DNA of 64,000 nt, taken from positions 1,036,789 to 1,100,788 of the forward strand of contig PTEU01000002.1 of the NCBI GenBank assembly GCA_004359425.1. Reading direction: 5' to 3'. This document shows positions 17,217-25,783 of the stretch, in pieces. Under the pieces are notes generated by a model, which saw nothing but the letters and a program-made list of their open reading frames with translations, did no database searches and had not been told where the DNA came from. Source of the DNA: Ideonella sp. MAG2 (GTDB lineage Bacteria > Pseudomonadota > Gammaproteobacteria > Burkholderiales > Burkholderiaceae_C). Within the stretch, counting starts at the first letter, position 1. Every line of letters starts with the position of its first letter. The translations under genes were made by a program, and so were the position numbers.

Positions 17217-18749
17217 ATGACACAGATTCACCCATTCCCTGTTTGGCTGCGCGGGCTGGCATTGGCTGCGGCCCTGTGCGCCACGGCGGCCCAGGCCGCC
17301 CCGGCCACCAACTTAAGCCTCAAGCCTTGCCGTCTCAAAGGCGTGGAGCACGAGGCCCGTTGTGGGGTGCTGAAGCGCCCGCTCAACCCCGCCCAGCCTC
17401 AAGGCCCGCAGATTGATGTCCATGTGGCGGTGCTGCCTGCGGTGGCGCGGGTTAAAAAGCCTGATCCCGTGGTGTTTTTTGCCGGGGGGCCGGGCCAAAG
17501 TGCCATCGACTTGGCGGGGTCCATCAGCCAGTTGATGAGCCGGTTCTCCAACCGGCGCGATCTGGTGCTGATTGACCAGCGTGGCACTGGCCGCAGCGCC
17601 CCCTTGAAGTGTGCGGAGCAGTCCCCGGGGGAGCCCTTGGCCCACAGCCTGAGCATGGAAAGACAAAAAGCCCTGTGGCAGGACTGCCTGAAGACCCTGA
17701 AGGCTTTGCCGCATGGCGACCTGCGTTACTACACCACCAGCATTGCCATGGCCGATGCCGACGCGGTGCGGGCCGCTTTAGGCTATGAGCAGGTCAACAT
17801 CGTGGGCGCTTCTTATGGCACGCGGGCGGTGTTGGAGTACATGCGCCTCTTTCCCCAGCGGGTGCGACGCGCGGTGTTGGACGGCGTAGCACCGCCCGAC
17901 ATGGTGTTGCCCGCGACCTTTGCCGTGGACGCCCAGGCCGCCATGGACAAGCTGCTCACCGATTGCGAGGCGGATACGCGCTGTTCCGCGCTCTACCCCC
18001 GCCTGCGCGCGGATTGGAAGGGCTTGCTGGCGGCCATGCCGCAGGAGGCACGCATCCTGCACCCGGTCACCGGGCGGGAGGAGGTGTTGACGCTGACCCG
18101 CGACCACCTCACCCAGTGGGCGCGCGTGCCGCACTACTCACCCACGCTGGCCTCAGGGCTGCCTTTTGCCATCACCGAGGCCAAGGCTGGCCGCTGGACA
18201 CCGCTGGTGGGTTTGGTGTCTGCCATGACGGGCCCGCGTGGCCTGGGCTTGGCCATGGGCATGCACTTTGCCGTGGTCTGCGCCGAGGACATGCCGCGTC
18301 TGCCCAGCGCCGCAGCGGCTGCCACGGACTTTGGAGACGGCACCGTGCGCCAGTATCAAGAGGCCTGCGCAGATGTGACGGCGGGCACACCGCCGCCGGG
18401 GTTTTACACCCTGCCGCCAGCTACCGTGCCTGCCCTGCTCTTGTCCGGCGGTGCCGACCCCGCCACGCCCCCGCGCCATGGCGAGCGGGTGGGCAAGGCC
18501 TTGGGTGGCTTGGCCCGCCATGTGGTGGTTCCGCAAGCTGGGCATGGCACCTTGAGCCTGGGCTGTGTGCGTGATGCGGTGTTCCGCTTTGTGGATGCGG
18601 AGTCTGCCACCACGGCTCTTGAAGAGGCGAGCACGGCCAAGGGCGCAGCCTGTGCCGACAAAATGCCCCGGCCGCCCGCCTTTGCCCCCATACAGCCCCG
18701 GGCTGTCTCGGCCAGCAGCAACACCGCCACGGCAGGAGGCGCGCGATGA
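17217..18749 (+). CDS. Alpha/beta hydrolase (TAP-like peptidase family)
   Basis: Signal peptide; LIDQRGTGRS, VGASYGTRAVLEYMR; C-terminal LLLSGGADPATPP and GHGTL. Confidence 0.85.
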   Translation: MTQIHPFPVWLRGLALAAALCATAAQAAPATNLSLKPCRLKGVEHEARCGVLKRPLNPAQPQGPQIDVHVAVLPAVARVKKPDPVVFFAGGPGQSAIDLAGSISQLMSRFSNRRDLVLIDQRGTGRSAPLKCAEQSPGEPLAHSLSMERQKALWQDCLKTLKALPHGDLRYYTTSIAMADADAVRAALGYEQVNIVGASYGTRAVLEYMRLFPQRVRRAVLDGVAPPDMVLPATFAVDAQAAMDKLLTDCEADTRCSALYPRLRADWKGLLAAMPQEARILHPVTGREEVLTLTRDHLTQWARVPHYSPTLASGLPFAITEAKAGRWTPLVGLVSAMTGPRGLGLAMGMHFAVVCAEDMPRLPSAAAAATDFGDGTVRQYQEACADVTAGTPPPGFYTLPPATVPALLLSGGADPATPPRHGERVGKALGGLARHVVVPQAGHGTLSLGCVRDAVFRFVDAESATTALEEASTAKGAACADKMPRPPAFAPIQPRAVSASSNTATAGGAR

Positions 18750-19564
18750 TTGAGGTTCAACAGTTGAGCAAGCGTTTTGTGCAGGGCAGTGGCAAGAAGG
18801 CCCAGGTTGTGCAGGCCGTCAGCGGGGTGAGCTGGTGCGCTGGCAACGGCCAGATCACCGGCTTGCTAGGCCCCAATGGGGCGGGCAAGACCACCTCGCT
18901 GCGCATGGTGGCGGGGTTGATTGCACCGGATGAGGGCGAGGTGCGGGTGGATGGCATTCATGTGGCGGCCCAACCGCAGCAGGCGCTGGCGCGGCTGGGC
19001 GTGCTGTCAGACGCCCGAGGGCTCTACCCGCGCCTCACAGCCCGCGAGAACATTGTGTACTTTGGGCGGCTGCATGGCCTGAGTGCGGCAGCGGCGGCAG
19101 AGCGGGCCGAGTACTTGGCGCGACTGCTGGAAATGCAGCCCCTGCTGGACCGCCGCACCGACGGTTTCAGCCAGGGCGAACGCATGAAGACGGCGCTGGC
19201 TCGTGCCCTGGTGCATGACCCCGCCAACATCATCTTGGATGAGCCCACCAATGGCTTGGATGTGCTGGCCACGCGGGCCTTGCGCGAGGCCTTGCGCCGT
19301 CTGCGCGATGAGGAGGGCAAGTGCATTGTGTTTTCCAGCCACATCATGCAAGAGGTGGAGCGCTTGTGTGACCAGGTCGTGGTGATTTCCCACGGCCGCA
19401 CGGTGGCGGAAGGCTCGGTGCCGGACCTGCTGGCGCGCGCCGGCGAGCAGGATTTTGAAGAGGCCTTTGTCAGCCTGGCCTTCACCGCAGAAGAGCGGCG
19501 CGCCGCAGGCTTGCAACTGGCCCGCGAGGGCCAAAGCCCTAGGCATGAAAGGGGAGCAGCATGA
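18746..19564 (+). CDS. ABC transporter ATP-binding protein, NatA-like
   Basis: GLLGPNGAGKTTSLRM Walker A; SQGERMKTALAR; ILDEPTNGLD. Confidence 0.9.
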   Translation: MIEVQQLSKRFVQGSGKKAQVVQAVSGVSWCAGNGQITGLLGPNGAGKTTSLRMVAGLIAPDEGEVRVDGIHVAAQPQQALARLGVLSDARGLYPRLTARENIVYFGRLHGLSAAAAAERAEYLARLLEMQPLLDRRTDGFSQGERMKTALARALVHDPANIILDEPTNGLDVLATRALREALRRLRDEEGKCIVFSSHIMQEVERLCDQVVVISHGRTVAEGSVPDLLARAGEQDFEEAFVSLAFTAEERRAAGLQLAREGQSPRHERGAA

Positions 19565-20727
19565 TGGCGCGGTTTTGGATTGTGTTGGTCAAGGAGTTGG
19601 TGGACGCGCTGCGAGACCGGCGAACCCTGTTCACCGTGCTGCTCAGCTCGGTCGCCATGGGGCCTTTGGTGTTGGTGCTGCTCTCCACCATGATTGCCAA
19701 TATCGAGAAGCGGGCCGATGCCCGCGAGATGGTGGTGGTGGGCTTGCAACATGCGCCCACGCTGCGCAACTATCTGGAGCGTCAGACCTTCACCATCACG
19801 GAGGCACCGGCCGACTTTGAGCAGCGCCTGAAGGACAGCAAGCTGGGTGACCCGGTGCTGGTGGTGGATGAGAACTTTGAGGCCGAGTTGGCGGCGGGCG
19901 AAGTGCCGGTGCTGGAGTTGGTCACGGCCAGCGCCAACCAGCGTGCCCAGGCCAGCGTTGGCCGTCTGACCAGGGTGTTGCAGGGCTTTAACCAAGAGCA
20001 AGCCACGCTGCGCTTGGCCGTGCGCGGGGTGGCCCCAGCCAGCCTGCAGGCCATCAGGGTGAATGAGCGCGATCTCTCCAGCGCTTCAGCCCGTGCCGCA
20101 CAGCTCACCGGCATGCTGCCCTTCTTCATTTTGATGGCCGTGCTCTATGGTTGTTTGGCTGCGGCGCTCGATACCACCGCCGGTGAGCGTGAACGCGGCT
20201 CTTTGGAGCCCCTGCTGATGAACCCCACAACCCGCTTAACCTTGGTGGCCGGCAAGTGGGGTGCCGTGGCAGCAATTGGCTGGCTGATTGGTGCCCTGGG
20301 GTGCCTGAGCTTTTTGCCGGGCCAGTGGCTGCTGCGCAGCGAGACCCTGGCTGCCATGTTCCGCTATGGCTGGGTGGAGTTGGGCGGATTTTTGGCGGTG
20401 TTGACACCGCTGGTCGGGGCCTTGGCGGCCTTGTTGATGGCCTTGGCCATCCGCTGCAAAAGCTATAAGGAGGCGCAGGCCAATGCGGCCGTGCTGTTGA
20501 CGCTGGTCTCCCTGCTGCCCATGCTGGCGCTGTTTAACCAAGAAGGTGAGCAAGCCTGGCACCTCAGCGTGCCGGTGCTGGCGCAGTTCACACTGATGGG
20601 CCGAGTGTTGCGTGGCGAGGCGATGAGTGTGATGGATTTGGCCTTGCCGACCGCCATGAGTGCGGTGATCATTTTGCTGGCCCTGAGCTATGTGGCGCGG
20701 CATCTGGGGCGCGCCGCCGTCAAATGA
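19561..20727 (+). CDS. ABC-2 type permease, NatB-like
   Basis: 388-aa membrane protein translationally coupled to the ATPase; KELVDALRDRRTLF start. Confidence 0.85.
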   Translation: MMARFWIVLVKELVDALRDRRTLFTVLLSSVAMGPLVLVLLSTMIANIEKRADAREMVVVGLQHAPTLRNYLERQTFTITEAPADFEQRLKDSKLGDPVLVVDENFEAELAAGEVPVLELVTASANQRAQASVGRLTRVLQGFNQEQATLRLAVRGVAPASLQAIRVNERDLSSASARAAQLTGMLPFFILMAVLYGCLAAALDTTAGERERGSLEPLLMNPTTRLTLVAGKWGAVAAIGWLIGALGCLSFLPGQWLLRSETLAAMFRYGWVELGGFLAVLTPLVGALAALLMALAIRCKSYKEAQANAAVLLTLVSLLPMLALFNQEGEQAWHLSVPVLAQFTLMGRVLRGEAMSVMDLALPTAMSAVIILLALSYVARHLGRAAVK

Positions 20728-20728
20728 C

Positions 20729-21145
20729 TCAGGCGGCCTTCAGCACCCGCCATACCTCGTCTTGCCAGGGCAGGGCGCAGACCATGCGGTTGTAGTAGAG
20801 CGCGGCCTCGTTGACAGAGAGCAGCTCGCCGCGCTCACCCACCAAGCGCAGATTGGTCACCACACACATGGGGTTGGCCATGGCCAACACGCCGGAGCCA
20901 ATTTGCACCCAATCCCAAGCCAGGCCCGCACCTGGTGCGTTGCCCAGTTCGGCCCACAAGGTCTGCCCACTTGTGGGATGTTGCCCATCCGCAGCAAAAG
21001 TAACGCATGACCCTAGGTGAACAAATCGCAAACGCCGTTTAGTATTGGCCTGACAAAATACGGTCGGCCAAGAATAGAGCGACCAGGGAGGTGGCATGGC
21101 CAAGGCGGAACTTGCGGGGATAGAGGTGCTTGCGTGACTCTGCAT
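20729..21145 (-). CDS. Hypothetical protein (start uncertain)
   Basis: ORF only; possibly shorter than annotated. Confidence 0.4.
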   Translation of the reverse strand: MQSHASTSIPASSALAMPPPWSLYSWPTVFCQANTKRRLRFVHLGSCVTFAADGQHPTSGQTLWAELGNAPGAGLAWDWVQIGSGVLAMANPMCVVTNLRLVGERGELLSVNEAALYYNRMVCALPWQDEVWRVLKAA

Positions 21146-21246
21146 GGCCTGTAGTCTGGAGAAGACGACGTGTGCTTGCTAGCTGTAAATCCTGTCAGGG
21201 ATAAAGATTGGACTGAGCCACCCGCTCATACGGGGGTGCGTTATCC

Positions 21247-21969
21247 ATGAGTCTGCTCAGCCCAAGTTATCAAGCCATTTTGGCGGCAAAGACTCAAGGG
21301 GAGTTCAAGGAAGAGATTGTTCGGTTTGCGAATGAACTCGGCTTCCAGTATGTCTCCGCGATGACCGTGGTCGATCACTCCCTGACCCACTCTGAGTTTT
21401 ATAACGTCGACAATATGCCAGCGGGCTTGGCCGATGCGACAGCCGGTCGGCCAGAGATCTACCGCAGAGACCCGGTCGCCCAACATTGCCGCCGCAGTGC
21501 CATTCCCATCATGTGGGATCAGAAGACCTATGTCCAGCATGGCCTGGGCCAGCAGTGGGAAGAGCAGGCGGCGTTTGGTTACCGCACCGGCATCACCCTG
21601 GCGCTGCACATGCCCGAGGGAAGGCACTTTGTGCTGGGGGTCGACCGAGACCGTCAGTTGCCTCGCAACCCGACCGCCTTGACCCGCATTGTTTCTGAAC
21701 TCCAACTGTTTGCTGTCCATGCGCAAGAGGTGGCGACCCGGCTCTACCCCGAAGAGCAACGGGTCGATGATCTGCCTAATCTCACCCCCCGAGAGATTGA
21801 AGCGCTGAACTGGACCATGGAGGGCAAGACGGCCTGGGAGACAGGATTCATCCTGGGCATCAGTGAGCGGACCGTGGTTTTGCACCTGCAAAACGCCATG
21901 CACAAGCTTGGCGCGGTGAACAAACACCAAGCGGTGCTCAAGGCCCTGAGGCTGAAACTGATTCGATGA
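21247..21969 (+). CDS. LuxR-family transcriptional regulator with autoinducer-binding-like N-terminal domain
   Basis: 240 aa; N-terminal YRRDPVAQH..PIMW segment; C-terminal LTPREIEALNWTMEGKTAWETGFILGISERTVVLHLQNAMHKLGAVNKHQAV HTH. Confidence 0.88.
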   Translation: MSLLSPSYQAILAAKTQGEFKEEIVRFANELGFQYVSAMTVVDHSLTHSEFYNVDNMPAGLADATAGRPEIYRRDPVAQHCRRSAIPIMWDQKTYVQHGLGQQWEEQAAFGYRTGITLALHMPEGRHFVLGVDRDRQLPRNPTALTRIVSELQLFAVHAQEVATRLYPEEQRVDDLPNLTPREIEALNWTMEGKTAWETGFILGISERTVVLHLQNAMHKLGAVNKHQAVLKALRLKLIR

Positions 21970-21978
21970 CCCCCGGCA

Positions 21979-21996
21979 ACTGTCAGAGTTGACAGT
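21979..21996. promoter_or_regulatory. Candidate lux-box-type operator
   Basis: Perfect dyad ACTGTCA-GAGT-TGACAGT fitting CT-N12-AG, downstream of luxR and upstream of the peptide gene. Confidence 0.6.
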
Positions 21997-22067
21997 GTCG
22001 ACAAAGTTGGGTTCTTGGTTCAATGAAATTGTGCGCAGTTGGAGCGCACGGACATCTCGGAGACACC

Positions 22068-22262
22068 ATGAACACAAACCTCACCACCAGTGACATGACG
22101 ACCTTGGCCCCTGTTGCGGCGCTCGAGCCGTTGCAGGAGTTGTCCCTGACCGAATTGCGATCCGTCGCAGGCGGGGTCTCAGTTCGGGACGCGGACGTTA
22201 TCGACTCGCCGTTTCGCGGCTGGTCTGACGGCACCGATTCTTCGCCTTTCCGAGGCTGGTGA
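22068..22262 (+). CDS. Double-glycine-leader precursor peptide (64 aa)
   Basis: GGAG ribosome site at 22059; leader ...LQELSLTELRSVAGG; core VSVRDADVIDSPFRGWSDGTDSSPFRGW; adjacent type I exporter. Confidence 0.72.
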   Translation: MNTNLTTSDMTTLAPVAALEPLQELSLTELRSVAGGVSVRDADVIDSPFRGWSDGTDSSPFRGW

Positions 22263-22273
22263 GCAAACGCTGA

Positions 22274-22297
22274 CGGAATCCTCGGTAGAGGGTTCCG
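22274..22297 (+). promoter_or_regulatory. Intergenic RNA hairpin between peptide and exporter genes
   Basis: CGGAATCCTC-GGTA-GAGGGTTCCG, 10-bp stem with one G-U, no U tract. Confidence 0.5.
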
Positions 22298-22338
22298 CTG
22301 CTGGGCATTCGGTGGTGACGGTGCGCTAACCTCCCCGA

Positions 22339-25188
22339 ATGCTGTTTCGACCCGAATCCCTCCACAGCCAGCGTCAGGCCTGGTTAGGTTCCATCCACGT
22401 GATGCAGCCTCTAGGCTTGGCTTGGCTGACCTTCGGGGTGCTGGCGGCGCTTGTCGCCGTCAGCACCTTTCTTTTTTGGGGTGAGTTGCCTCGCACCACG
22501 CGCCTGAATGGCTTGGTGGTGCCCAAGCGAGGGTGGGTTCGGGTGGTACCGCCAGTGGCCGGGCGCTTGCTGGCGGTGGAGGTCGAAGAAGGACAGCGCG
22601 TGGCCCAAGGGGCGGCGTTGTTCACGCTGGAGGTCGTTGCTCCCCAATGGGGCGAGGCGACGTCGTTGGGTCTGCGGCAGAGCTTTGAGGCTCGGCGTCG
22701 CAGCTTGGATGAAGCGAGCAAGCAGACGCAGATGCTGCTGCTCGAACAGTCCAAAGGGTTGACGCAGCGCTTGGCTGCCGCCCGCCGCGAAGCTGCAGCG
22801 CTGGCCACCCAGGCCACGTTGCAGCAGCAGCGGCAGGCCTTGGCAGAGCGGGCGCTGGCGCGGCTCGAAGCACTGGTTGCGGAACAGTATGTTTCAGCAG
22901 CACAGGTTCAAGATAAAACAGGGGAGCTACTGAGTAGTAGGGCGGAGAGCGCGGCGATCGCCCGCCAGCGCGAGGCGCTGGATGCGGAGATCGCTGCGCT
23001 GGAAGCCCAAGTGCGCCAGTTGCCCTTGCTCACCGCCCAGAGACAGGGCGAGTTGGAGCGCGAACAAAACGAGCTGGCCGAGTTGGCGACCCGTGAGGAT
23101 GGCAGCCAAGCGCCCCGCCGTGTGGTGGTGAAAGCCCCCGTGGCCGGCACGCTCTTGGCTTTGCACACCAGCCGTGGCCAGGCCGTGGCCCCCGATGCAC
23201 CCGTGTTGACCCTGTCGCCCGAGGGCGAGCCGCTGGTGGCTTACCTTTATGCACCCTCCAGTGCCTTGGGCTTCTTGCGTGTGGGCCAAGAGGTCAAGTT
23301 GCGCGTAGCGGCTTTTCCGCACCAGAAGTTTGGTTGGTTGGCGGGGCAGGTGTCCGGCGTGTCGCAAGAGACCGTGCATGACCCGGCGCGGGGCGTGAGG
23401 CGGCTGAGCCCGGCCGAGCTCTCGCCCCACTTCACCGGCGTGGTGCTGGAGTTCACCCCCACGCCCAGTTTCCGCACGGGTGACGAGCGCCAATCGGTGC
23501 GCTTGCGCAGCCTGCTGGGGCCGGTCACGGGCCTGAAGCGTGCGCTGGCCCAGGTGCTGCTGCTGGCCTTGGCGCTCGAAGCCTTTGTGATGCTCTCGCC
23601 CTTTTTCATGCAGTGGGTGGTGGATGGTGTGCTGGTGAGTGGCGAGCGCCACTTGTTGCCCACGCTGGCCCTGGGTTTTGGGCTGTTGGTCTTGATCCAA
23701 GGTTTGACGGCGGCGGGGCGTTCCTGGGCCGTGCTGCATCTGTCCTCCAGCCTGCAATTGCAGTGGATGGGCCAGGTCTTCGCGCATTTGCTGCGCTTGC
23801 CCATGGCTTGGTTTGAGCGCCGACATACGGGAGACATTTGGTCGCGTTTCGGGGCGGTTCAGCAGATCCAAGACAAGCTCACCGGGGCATTTGTTGAAAG
23901 CCTGATCGACGGCCTGATGGTGTTGCTGACGGGTGTGCTGATGTGGGTATATAGCCCGGCGCTGGCCAGCTTGGCTGTGGGGGCGGTGCTGCTTTACGGC
24001 TTGTTCAGGCTGGCGCTGTGGCGGCCACTGCGTGAGGCCGCAGAGGAAGCCTTGATTCATGAGGCCAAACGCTCTAGTCACTTTTTGGAATCGTTACGCG
24101 GCATGGGAGCCATCAAGCTCTTCAACGCCGAGGCCTTGCGCCAGTCGGGCTTTATGAACCTGGTGGTGGACGCGATGAACGCCGGGCTCACCGTGCGCAA
24201 GCTGGAGCTGGCCTTGGCCGTGGCCCATCGGGTGCTGTTTGGCCTGGAGCGCGTTGGTGTGATTTGGTGGGGTGCCCTGCTGGTGATGGACCAGCGCCTC
24301 TCGGTGGGCATGTTGTTTGCCTTCATGGCCTACCAAGACGTGTTCGCGCAACGCACCTCGGCGCTGATCGACAAGGTTCACGAGCTACGGCTGGTGCGCT
24401 TGCAGGCCGAGCGGCTGTCCGACATTGTGCTGACCACGCCGGAGCCCGAGCAGACCATGGCCTGGGGCACCAGCGCGGCACCGGATGCTTCGGGTGCCGG
24501 TGCCTTGACCTTGCGGGACGTTCACTTCAGGTACTCGGATGTGGAGCCCGAGGTGTTGCGGGGCGTGAGTTTCTCCGTGGCCCCTGGCGAGTCGGTGGCT
24601 ATTGCCGGTCCGTCTGGCGGCGGCAAGACCACTTTGCTCAAGCTGCTGCTGGGCATTCATGCGCCGACTCAAGGCGAGTTGGTGGTGGACGGCCAGCCCC
24701 TGAGCCCCAGTGGCTTACAGGCCTGGCGTCAACGGGTGGGCGTGGTGCTGCAAGAAGAGCCGCTGTTTGCGGGCTCGGTGGGCGACAACATTAGCTTTTT
24801 TGCGCCCGATGCCGACCCGGCTTGGGTGCAGGAATGCGCCAAGCTCGCCTCAGTGCACGACGAGATCTTGGCCATGCCCATGGGCTATGCCACTTTGGTG
24901 GGCGATATGGGCACGGTGTTGTCGGCCGGGCAAAAGCAGCGAGTGCTGCTGGCGCGGGCGCTGTACCGGCGGCCCAGCGTGCTGCTGCTGGACGAGGCCA
25001 CCAGCGCACTGGACGTGGAACGCGAGCGGGCCGTGAACGCGGCGGTGGCCGCGCTCAAGCTGACCCGCATCATCGTGGCGCACCGGCCTGAGACCATTGC
25101 CAGCGCCGACCGGGTGATTGTGCTGGTGGGTGGTGTGGTGCGGGAGGATAGGCCTGTCCGGGTGATGCAGGCCCAGCGAGAGAGTTAG
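22339..25188 (+). CDS. HlyD-like adaptor / ABC exporter chimera (peptide exporter lacking C39 catalytic part)
   Basis: N-terminal TM plus lipoyl/coiled-coil adaptor; C39-like tail HDPARGVRRLSPAELSPHFTGVVLEFTPTP; ABC TMD; GPSGGGKTTLLKL, LSAGQKQRVLLARALYRRPSVLLLDEATSALD. Confidence 0.85.
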   Translation: MLFRPESLHSQRQAWLGSIHVMQPLGLAWLTFGVLAALVAVSTFLFWGELPRTTRLNGLVVPKRGWVRVVPPVAGRLLAVEVEEGQRVAQGAALFTLEVVAPQWGEATSLGLRQSFEARRRSLDEASKQTQMLLLEQSKGLTQRLAAARREAAALATQATLQQQRQALAERALARLEALVAEQYVSAAQVQDKTGELLSSRAESAAIARQREALDAEIAALEAQVRQLPLLTAQRQGELEREQNELAELATREDGSQAPRRVVVKAPVAGTLLALHTSRGQAVAPDAPVLTLSPEGEPLVAYLYAPSSALGFLRVGQEVKLRVAAFPHQKFGWLAGQVSGVSQETVHDPARGVRRLSPAELSPHFTGVVLEFTPTPSFRTGDERQSVRLRSLLGPVTGLKRALAQVLLLALALEAFVMLSPFFMQWVVDGVLVSGERHLLPTLALGFGLLVLIQGLTAAGRSWAVLHLSSSLQLQWMGQVFAHLLRLPMAWFERRHTGDIWSRFGAVQQIQDKLTGAFVESLIDGLMVLLTGVLMWVYSPALASLAVGAVLLYGLFRLALWRPLREAAEEALIHEAKRSSHFLESLRGMGAIKLFNAEALRQSGFMNLVVDAMNAGLTVRKLELALAVAHRVLFGLERVGVIWWGALLVMDQRLSVGMLFAFMAYQDVFAQRTSALIDKVHELRLVRLQAERLSDIVLTTPEPEQTMAWGTSAAPDASGAGALTLRDVHFRYSDVEPEVLRGVSFSVAPGESVAIAGPSGGGKTTLLKLLLGIHAPTQGELVVDGQPLSPSGLQAWRQRVGVVLQEEPLFAGSVGDNISFFAPDADPAWVQECAKLASVHDEILAMPMGYATLVGDMGTVLSAGQKQRVLLARALYRRPSVLLLDEATSALDVERERAVNAAVAALKLTRIIVAHRPETIASADRVIVLVGGVVREDRPVRVMQAQRES

Positions 25189-25191
25189 TGT

Positions 25192-25386
25192 TTACTCCTG
25201 CTTCACCGAGCAGGTGCTGAAGCCCAGCATGGGGTAGAGCGGGCAGAAGCGGGTCAGGCCGGTCAAGAGCGGCACCACACCAAGCCAACCCCAGACACCA
25301 ATAGTGCCCATCAGGGTCAAAGTAATCAGGGCAGCGCCAACGGCGATTCGGGCAATGCGGTCAATGCCGCCAACATTCAGCTTCAT
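25192..25386 (-). CDS. DUF2892-type small membrane protein
   Basis: MKLNVGGIDRIARIAVGAALI...GLTRFCPLYPMLGFSTC. Confidence 0.8.
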   Translation of the reverse strand: MKLNVGGIDRIARIAVGAALITLTLMGTIGVWGWLGVVPLLTGLTRFCPLYPMLGFSTCSVKQE

Positions 25387-25471
25387 GGGGTTCTCCTCGT
25401 GCTGAGCCCACCAACAGGGCAGGCCATGGCGTGACTGTACGCCCAAGCCGCTGCGCGGTCTGTGACTGGGG

Positions 25472-25783
25472 TCACACAGGCCCTTGGGCCAGTTCGCGCA
25501 AAGCCCGAGCGTCCAAGACGGTGATGCGCTCGCGCCCCAGTTGCAGCCAGCCGGCTTGCTCAAAGCGCTTGAGCAAGCGGGTCACCATCTCGCGCACCGT
25601 GCCCAGCTCATCCGCCAAGGCCTGATGGGTGGTGGTGATGGGGCTGCCGCGCCCCAGCAAGCAGGTGGCCAGGCGTTGGTCCAGGCGCTGAAAGGCCACA
25701 GCCTCACCGTGGGGCATGCCGGGGATGGGGCTGCTGATGGACGGTGCCGTACAGCAAGCGGCGCAGTGGGGGCGGCAGTTCAT
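25472..25783 (-). CDS. Chimeric ORF: YkgJ-type CxxCC N-terminus joined to Crp/Fnr C-terminal HTH
   Basis: [26 protein letters not shown] then [14 protein letters not shown]...[31 protein letters not shown]. Confidence 0.6.

Follow-up and report, generated by a model that had tools for sequence, protein, structure and literature searches.

Peptide signals of the RRNPP systems (PlcR-PapR, NprR-NprX, and ComR-XIP) derive from short ribosomal precursors, and their short active end is sensed intracellularly. Bacteriocins and microcins with a double-glycine (GG) leader and a PCAT exporter are of the colicin V type. Acyl-homoserine lactone (AHL) quorum sensing by LuxI/LuxR together with RsaM is encoded in the luxR-rsaM-luxI loci of Burkholderia and Acinetobacter (PMC10710839). 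The same review describes, as RsaM type 6, rsaM genes divergent from a luxR solo in Pelomonas, Thauera, Kinneretia, Albitalea, and Xenophilus, and the word "peptide" does not occur in it. For the LuxR solos PipR/OryR, PMC4981722 reports that a LuxR homologue responded to the peptide Ser-His-Ser and that a peptide importer was required. The passages found in two LuxR solo surveys (PMC10134790 and PMC4338825) mention neither the genera treated here nor such peptides, and a 2026 quorum-sensing review keeps LuxR-type and peptide receptors as separate classes (PMC13220807). We found no earlier description of a LuxR with an encoded peptide ligand in the open-licence papers searched.

Here, we describe a locus in a 64,000-nucleotide stretch of DNA from Ideonella sp. 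MAG2, the whole of which is referred to as the window, where a luxR gene and a small peptide gene lie next to each other. The features of the locus are as follows.

20732–21097, minus strand: RsaM-like regulator gene (DUF4902-type fold), a 122-aa ORF divergent from luxR
21183–21198, plus strand: lux-box-like palindrome CTGTAAATCCTGTCAG upstream of luxR, read from the sequence, similar in 56 of 81 loci
21247–21969, plus strand: LuxR-type regulator, a LuxR solo and candidate receptor of the peptide, with the PF03472 autoinducer-binding domain and the PF00196 GerE HTH
21980–21995, plus strand: lux box CTGTCAGAGTTGACAG between luxR and the peptide gene, at the matching place in 76 of 81 loci
22068–22262, plus strand: peptide precursor ORF, 64 aa, with a GG leader
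22068–22175, plus strand: precursor leader, 36 aa, ending in ...LRSVAGG (GG assigned by sequence; alignable leaders in relatives)
22176–22259, plus strand: precursor core, 28 aa, with two SPFRGW units
22206–22223, plus strand: first SPFRGW unit, codons TCG CCG TTT CGC GGC TGG
22242–22259, plus strand: second, C-terminal SPFRGW unit, codons TCG CCT TTC CGA GGC TGG
22339–23349, plus strand: HlyD (membrane fusion protein) part of a fused exporter, corresponding to aa 1–337 of the 419-aa I. paludis HlyD
23371–25188, plus strand: ABC exporter part of the fused gene, corresponding to aa 117–720 of the I. paludis PCAT, with the C39 catalytic Cys and His absent

The likeliest start of the precursor is the ATG at 22068, which has GGAG ahead of it; the mechanical ORF call begins at 22023. 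The double-glycine leader has the sequence MNTNLTTSDMTTLAPVAALEPLQELSLTELRSVAGG, and the core translates to VSVRDADVIDSPFRGWSDGTDSSPFRGW, followed by the TGA stop at 22260–22262. A sequence-only reading of this DNA had pointed out that the two SPFRGW copies are identical and differ by three synonymous changes, and re-reading of the codons confirmed that three codons differ, all synonymously. An exact six-residue repeat arose in 7 of 200,000 shuffles of the window core, and the chance probability of three synonymous changes out of three in this pair alone was approximately 0.014. No family in Pfam, NCBIfam, PADLOC, or PHROGs matched the precursor at the cut-off; a Type-A lantibiotic match on the leader was below the cut-off and was rejected. 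Likewise, an Rfam search of the region gave no match, RNA structure as the cause of the repeat was unsupported (z = -1.37), and a search for the precursor on plasmids gave nothing convincing. The same reading had seen no modifying enzyme nearby, and this was borne out, as none of the kind expected for a modified RiPP was found from 18746 to 25563. In the window and the Ideonella relatives that were read, the interval from the luxR stop to the HlyD start held the peptide ORF alone, and an immunity gene, which a GG-leader bacteriocin would be expected to have, was not found in it.

Related loci were collected in two sets. The first, obtained by scanning with the LuxR alignment, comprised 80 loci from Ideonella, Roseateles, Mitsuaria, Rubrivivax, Methylibium, Rhizobacter, Paucibacter, and others; the second comprised 30 LuxR loci from whole family genomes, and its species overlap partly with those of the first. 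The arrangement seen in approximately 110 loci, from a single betaproteobacterial family that includes Ideonella, Roseateles, and Rubrivivax, is a LuxR-type regulator, then a lux box, then a small ORF with xPxxxW. The peptide ORF was present after all 30 of the best LuxR matches of the whole-genome search, and no such ORF was found behind the more distant LuxR paralogues L149, L150, L153, and L156. At E ≤ 1e-60, the family LuxR was detected in 53 of the 201 family genomes, although some of the matches counted are weaker paralogues; in an order-wide sample of 300, it was confined to its own family.

The number of P...W copies per precursor in 81 loci was one (38 loci), two (33), three (1), four (3), five (1), or seven (1), and four precursors had no copy at the standard spacing. 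Examples include APKGTW x2, LPKGGW x2, GPNGGW x5, and GPRGTW x7; the copies are the same within a precursor and different between species. Pro at position 2 is invariant in the motif-bearing peptides, and the motif directly follows GG in many precursors. Codons that differ between adjacent copies (54 pairs across the relatives) do so synonymously in 88 cases and non-synonymously in 7, whereas neutrality would give a synonymous fraction of 0.24; the binomial probability of approximately 1e-45 treats the differences as independent and is therefore overstated. The residues just before the hexapeptide mostly differ between copies. From this divergence and the 88:7 ratio within the unit, we conclude that selection acts on the six residues as a unit. 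The earlier proposal of a real, selected peptide is thus upheld by the approximately 110 loci and by the codon differences, and the homologous ORFs beside similar exporters that it suggested collecting were indeed found, with repeat numbers of 1–7. Its suggestion of two active units per precursor or a bivalent ligand held in part: the repeat is the functional unit, but a bivalent ligand is disfavoured because only one copy is present in many relatives and unconserved spacers lie between copies.

Eight loci lack both leader and exporter; they keep an ORF of 18–20 aa with LPRNGW, LPRAGW, or LPKQGW at its end, or else a tandem array, for example (GPRGTWA)7. Leaderless peptides occur only at loci without an exporter, and the hexapeptide, luxR, and the lux box are retained there. 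Some other precursors have unusual forms. At L077, L079, and L093, the precursor has a GG leader and four copies of SPKGTW; no lux box was found at these loci, no HlyD/PCAT lies nearby, and a small ORF adjoining the peptide resembles a C39 domain by eye only. In L071, the repeat is a variant, CTPRGGSW x5, in which Pro and Trp are four residues apart and each unit has a Cys. L067, L082, L089, and L119 have Trp-less units (LPRVGG, LPRAGG, or LPRVS).

The RsaM-like gene is divergent from luxR in all 81 related loci. The match of its protein to PF16245 was below the cut-off, and a PDB sequence search gave no match; a fold search settled its identity, the sole significant PDB matches of the AlphaFold model (mean pLDDT 79.4) being both chains of RsaM BCAM1869 (4o2h). 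A conserved short ORF upstream of luxR was discarded, as it is really the start of this opposite-strand gene. A profile search found no LuxI in the window's own genome (approximately 91% complete) or in 16 genomes of the genus, which includes Ideonella paludis, I. oryzae, and I. benzenivorans. This absence is informative because the same profile detected LuxI in 21 of the 201 family genomes, just 7 of which also carry the family LuxR. The locus accordingly has the type 6 arrangement, an RsaM-fold gene divergent from luxR without luxI. The lux box CTGTCAGAGTTGACAG is the sole exact match in the window's genome. Two near matches there (L161 and L163) lie just past the ends of ORFs (72–1493 and 39–1469, respectively), look like terminators, and were rejected. 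Given the LuxR, the RsaM-like gene, and the lux boxes, the peptide is part of a regulatory circuit and not an isolated export product. The sequence-only reading missed these neighbours, as well as the co-variation of the unit with the ligand pocket described below.

Several further sites were observed. A conserved lux-box-like site, CTGTCAGACATGACAG, lies at position 1501 of L109 (G001) and L110 (G005), upstream of a secreted thermolysin-family (M4) protease, which is a possible output of the circuit. A second exact lux box at position 1501 of L106 (G005) and L107 (G008) lies upstream of an E1 dehydrogenase-like gene, the N-terminus of which holds LPQGW / PPQGW. Several luxR genes (at most five) lie in tandem or in clusters at L145 (G170), L146 (G082), L147, and L148, with a single peptide gene after the family-nearest luxR; the extra LuxRs might listen to other peptides.

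The exporter ORF downstream of the peptide gene (22339–25188) encodes 949 aa. The relatives have two genes in its place, for HlyD (419–431 aa) and for a C39-containing ABC exporter (715–731 aa), and a GG leader with a complete HlyD plus C39 exporter directly after it was found in 57 of 81 loci. In the window, an in-frame loss of approximately 580 bp has fused the two and removed the C39 catalytic Cys and His. An intact PCAT was therefore rejected in favour of an HlyD-ABC fusion, the sole HlyD-ABC without C39 among the 81 loci, and no other intact C39 domain was found in the window's genome (approximately 91% complete). Hence, the earlier remark on a similar exporter applies to the relatives, whereas the window's own exporter is a fusion without the leader peptidase. 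The fusion may reflect either a genuine, recent deletion or a fault in the assembly. Unless it is the latter, export in this genome is probably impaired, because the fused exporter lacks the leader peptidase; with the C39 domain missing, secretion may be reduced or lost.

We then compared the LuxR proteins with the conserved AHL pocket set (TraR W57, Y61, D70, P71, W85, and G113). This set is kept in part: D, P, W85, and G are invariant, and Y61 is variable. Among the residues typical of an AHL pocket, D, P, W(88), Y(93), and G do not vary in the family LuxRs. The equivalent of LasR W60 / TraR W57 is Tyr or Phe in 64 of 72 LuxRs and Leu in the window.

For co-variation between receptor and peptide, 94 non-redundant LuxR-peptide pairs were gathered, of which 92 were used after the removal of two wrong motif calls, and LuxR positions were mapped onto LasR by alignment. 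One list of LasR pocket positions follows the LasR-ligand structure. A second list was used as printed in PMC9654057. The mean -log10 p for branch co-change with the hexapeptide was 0.655 in pocket columns, compared with 0.325 in other ligand-domain columns (Mann-Whitney 1e-6) and 0.313 in HTH columns (Mann-Whitney 3e-5). On a pocket-free tree, the hexapeptide showed a pocket excess of 0.248 (null -0.051 ± 0.048), or 0.255 with the published list, and the negative controls gave 0.096 and 0.061 (leader) and 0.052 (residues before the unit). In terms of z, the excess was approximately 2–3 for the control residues (leader, flanking) and approximately 6 for the hexapeptide. As the controls are also in excess, part of the pocket signal is background; furthermore, they exceed the simulated null, and thus the controls, not the simulation, are the fair yardstick. 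Over the controls, the hexapeptide excess was 2.5–5 fold.

When independent pairs were used (912 tests), the top two were both at pocket positions: LuxR 72 (LasR A70) with residue 5 Thr (8.2 agree and 0.1 disagree) and LuxR 61 (LasR W60) with residue 3 Lys (6.4 and 0.2, respectively). The whole-pocket enrichment in this test was weak (p = 0.023). The pair of LuxR 72 and position 5 ranked first or close to first by mutual information, on the full tree, and in the independent pairs. When the pocket-free tree was used, it was lost from the ranking by branch co-change. Because the ranking varies with the tree, strong single-pair claims from one tree were set aside and are not relied on.

The pairs can be read as a code. 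Where residue 5 of the peptide is Thr, LuxR 72 is Gly in 33 of 35 and Ser in the other 2; where it is Gly, LuxR 72 is never Gly (0 of 41) and is instead Met, Trp, Tyr, Ala, Gln, or others. Residue 1 Leu goes with Ala117 (30/30), Ala with Cys117 (17/20), Thr with Ser117 (7/10), and Gly with Phe129 (9/10). Residue 3 Asn goes with Tyr61 (11/11) and Lys mostly with Phe61, and residue 4 Arg goes with Met57 (5/8, the window included). Among the LuxRs with Trp-less peptides, those of L067, L082, and L089, which may be one clade, are alone in alignment A2 in being changed at all of 41, 49, and 51 (LasR L40, E48, and A50, all pocket positions). L119, also Trp-less, fits the pattern, but L130 has Leu51 with a Trp-bearing peptide, which weakens a strict bond between Trp loss and LuxR 51; this idea was not retained. 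In LasR numbering, we infer a contact order in which residue 1 lies near T115/A127, residues 3–4 near W60/Y56, residue 5 near A70, and Trp near L40/E48/A50. Such an order would have the peptide run along the AHL tunnel.

Taken together, these findings suggest that a genetically encoded peptide stands here in place of the synthesised small-molecule signal of the relatives. From the sequences, we consider it probable (approximately 0.65) that the hexapeptide, or a product keeping its side chains, is the ligand of LuxR in a LuxR-peptide quorum-sensing circuit. It is also rather probable that this is a LuxR family with an encoded peptide as the native ligand and the peptide gene in luxI's stead, and that matched diversification of pocket and hexapeptide (e.g., Thr5/Gly72) has produced many private channels. 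The locus would then be a self-contained cell-cell signalling circuit with its signal encoded as a peptide. LuxR acting at the lux box would switch on the peptide-exporter operon, and the RsaM-like protein would probably temper the circuit. An intact C39-containing ABC exporter would export the precursor and cleave the leader, and proteases would then free the xPxxxW unit, in a mature form that may differ in detail. The peptide would presumably re-enter cells and bind LuxR in the pocket equivalent to the AHL site of LasR, and this binding would close a positive feedback loop with density-dependent behaviour. The support consists of the conserved gene set, the lux boxes, purifying selection on the repeat, the lack of a detectable LuxI in the genus, the pocket co-variation, and the hexapeptide kept in leaderless loci without an exporter. 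Besides the background in the pocket signal, its weak whole-pocket enrichment, the tree-dependent 72/position 5 ranking, and L130, further points count against LuxR-ligand binding of this kind: a hexapeptide is far larger than an AHL, export and import are hard to account for in the leaderless loci, and the invariant AHL-type residues of the pocket leave some probability to a small-molecule ligand.

Those leaderless loci also bear on the alternatives. They argue against a bacteriocin and are compatible with peptide action inside the producing cell, where the peptide might bind LuxR as a small co-regulator (activator, chaperone, or anti-activator) with no cell-to-cell signal. Such a role would suit the short peptides that have no exporter and yet keep the hexapeptide, luxR, and the lux box, as well as the window exporter without a peptidase, and the pocket co-variation suits any direct binding. 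However, the GG leader and full HlyD plus C39 exporter of 57 of 81 loci would be costly for a cytosolic peptide, and multi-copy precursors with spacers suggest proteolytic release; we regard a purely intracellular role as unlikely. Less likely still is a LuxR that responds to an AHL or some other small molecule and regulates a secreted peptide acting as a bacteriocin or other effector. Bacteriocins are usually exported by way of a GG leader and a PCAT, the pocket keeps its D, P, W, and G, and LuxR solos sensing exogenous AHLs are known (PMC10134790). On the other hand, no immunity gene was found in the window or in the Ideonella relatives that were read, the cores are 6–28 aa in most cases, leaderless forms occur without an exporter, LuxI was not found in the genus, the LasR W60 / TraR W57 equivalent is mostly Tyr or Phe (64/72), and the hexapeptide co-varies with pocket residues.

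Since x-Pro N-termini can cyclise, the peptide could also be modified or cut to a smaller ligand, such as a cyclic dipeptide from the x-Pro end, that binds LuxR; the invariant Pro2 and the position of the motif right after GG in many precursors would agree with this. The locus has no modifying enzyme, however, and a two-residue product is a poor fit because positions 3, 4, and 5 also co-vary with LuxR, which makes this explanation highly improbable. A spurious ORF or repeat might be suspected from the small size and from Pfam, NCBIfam, and PHROGs families that all stayed below the cut-off, but the place, leader, and motif shared by approximately 110 loci and the 88:7 ratio refute it by conservation and leave it a negligible chance. 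LuxR-peptide signalling remains our preferred reading. If it is true, LuxR-type receptors and ribosomal peptide pheromones, two classes described separately, would meet in one LuxR family; candidate ligands would be at hand for a set of orphan LuxR solos; and more than 90 receptor-ligand pairs would form a natural series with a readable specificity code, a prospect that rests mostly on computation.

Compared with luxR-rsaM-luxI loci, the present locus is alike in the LuxR (autoinducer-binding domain and HTH), the RsaM fold, the lux boxes, and a probable positive feedback; it differs in having no luxI, a small peptide gene beside luxR, and Tyr or Phe in place of LasR W60 in most members. RsaM type 6 is the same gene pair in partly shared genera and represents the already described portion of the locus. 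The leader and HlyD/PCAT exporter are shared with GG-leader bacteriocins and microcins (57 loci, with C39 missing in the window), whereas the lack of an immunity gene, the very short cores, the leaderless relatives, and the co-variation with a receptor are not. The likeness to RRNPP systems, a short ribosomal precursor with a short active end that co-varies with the receptor, is one of analogy and not of membership: the fold of the window LuxR matched QscR, RhlR, SdiA, and LasR, so that the receptor has the LuxR autoinducer-binding fold and not a TPR fold, the bacteria are Gram-negative, and most loci have a GG leader and PCAT exporter. PipR, a peptide-responsive LuxR homologue, is the nearest precedent; the inducers of PipR/OryR are plant- or medium-derived, the abstract of PMC4981722 describes no dedicated precursor gene, and the neighbours are peptidases and an importer, whereas here the candidate signal is encoded beside its putative receptor.
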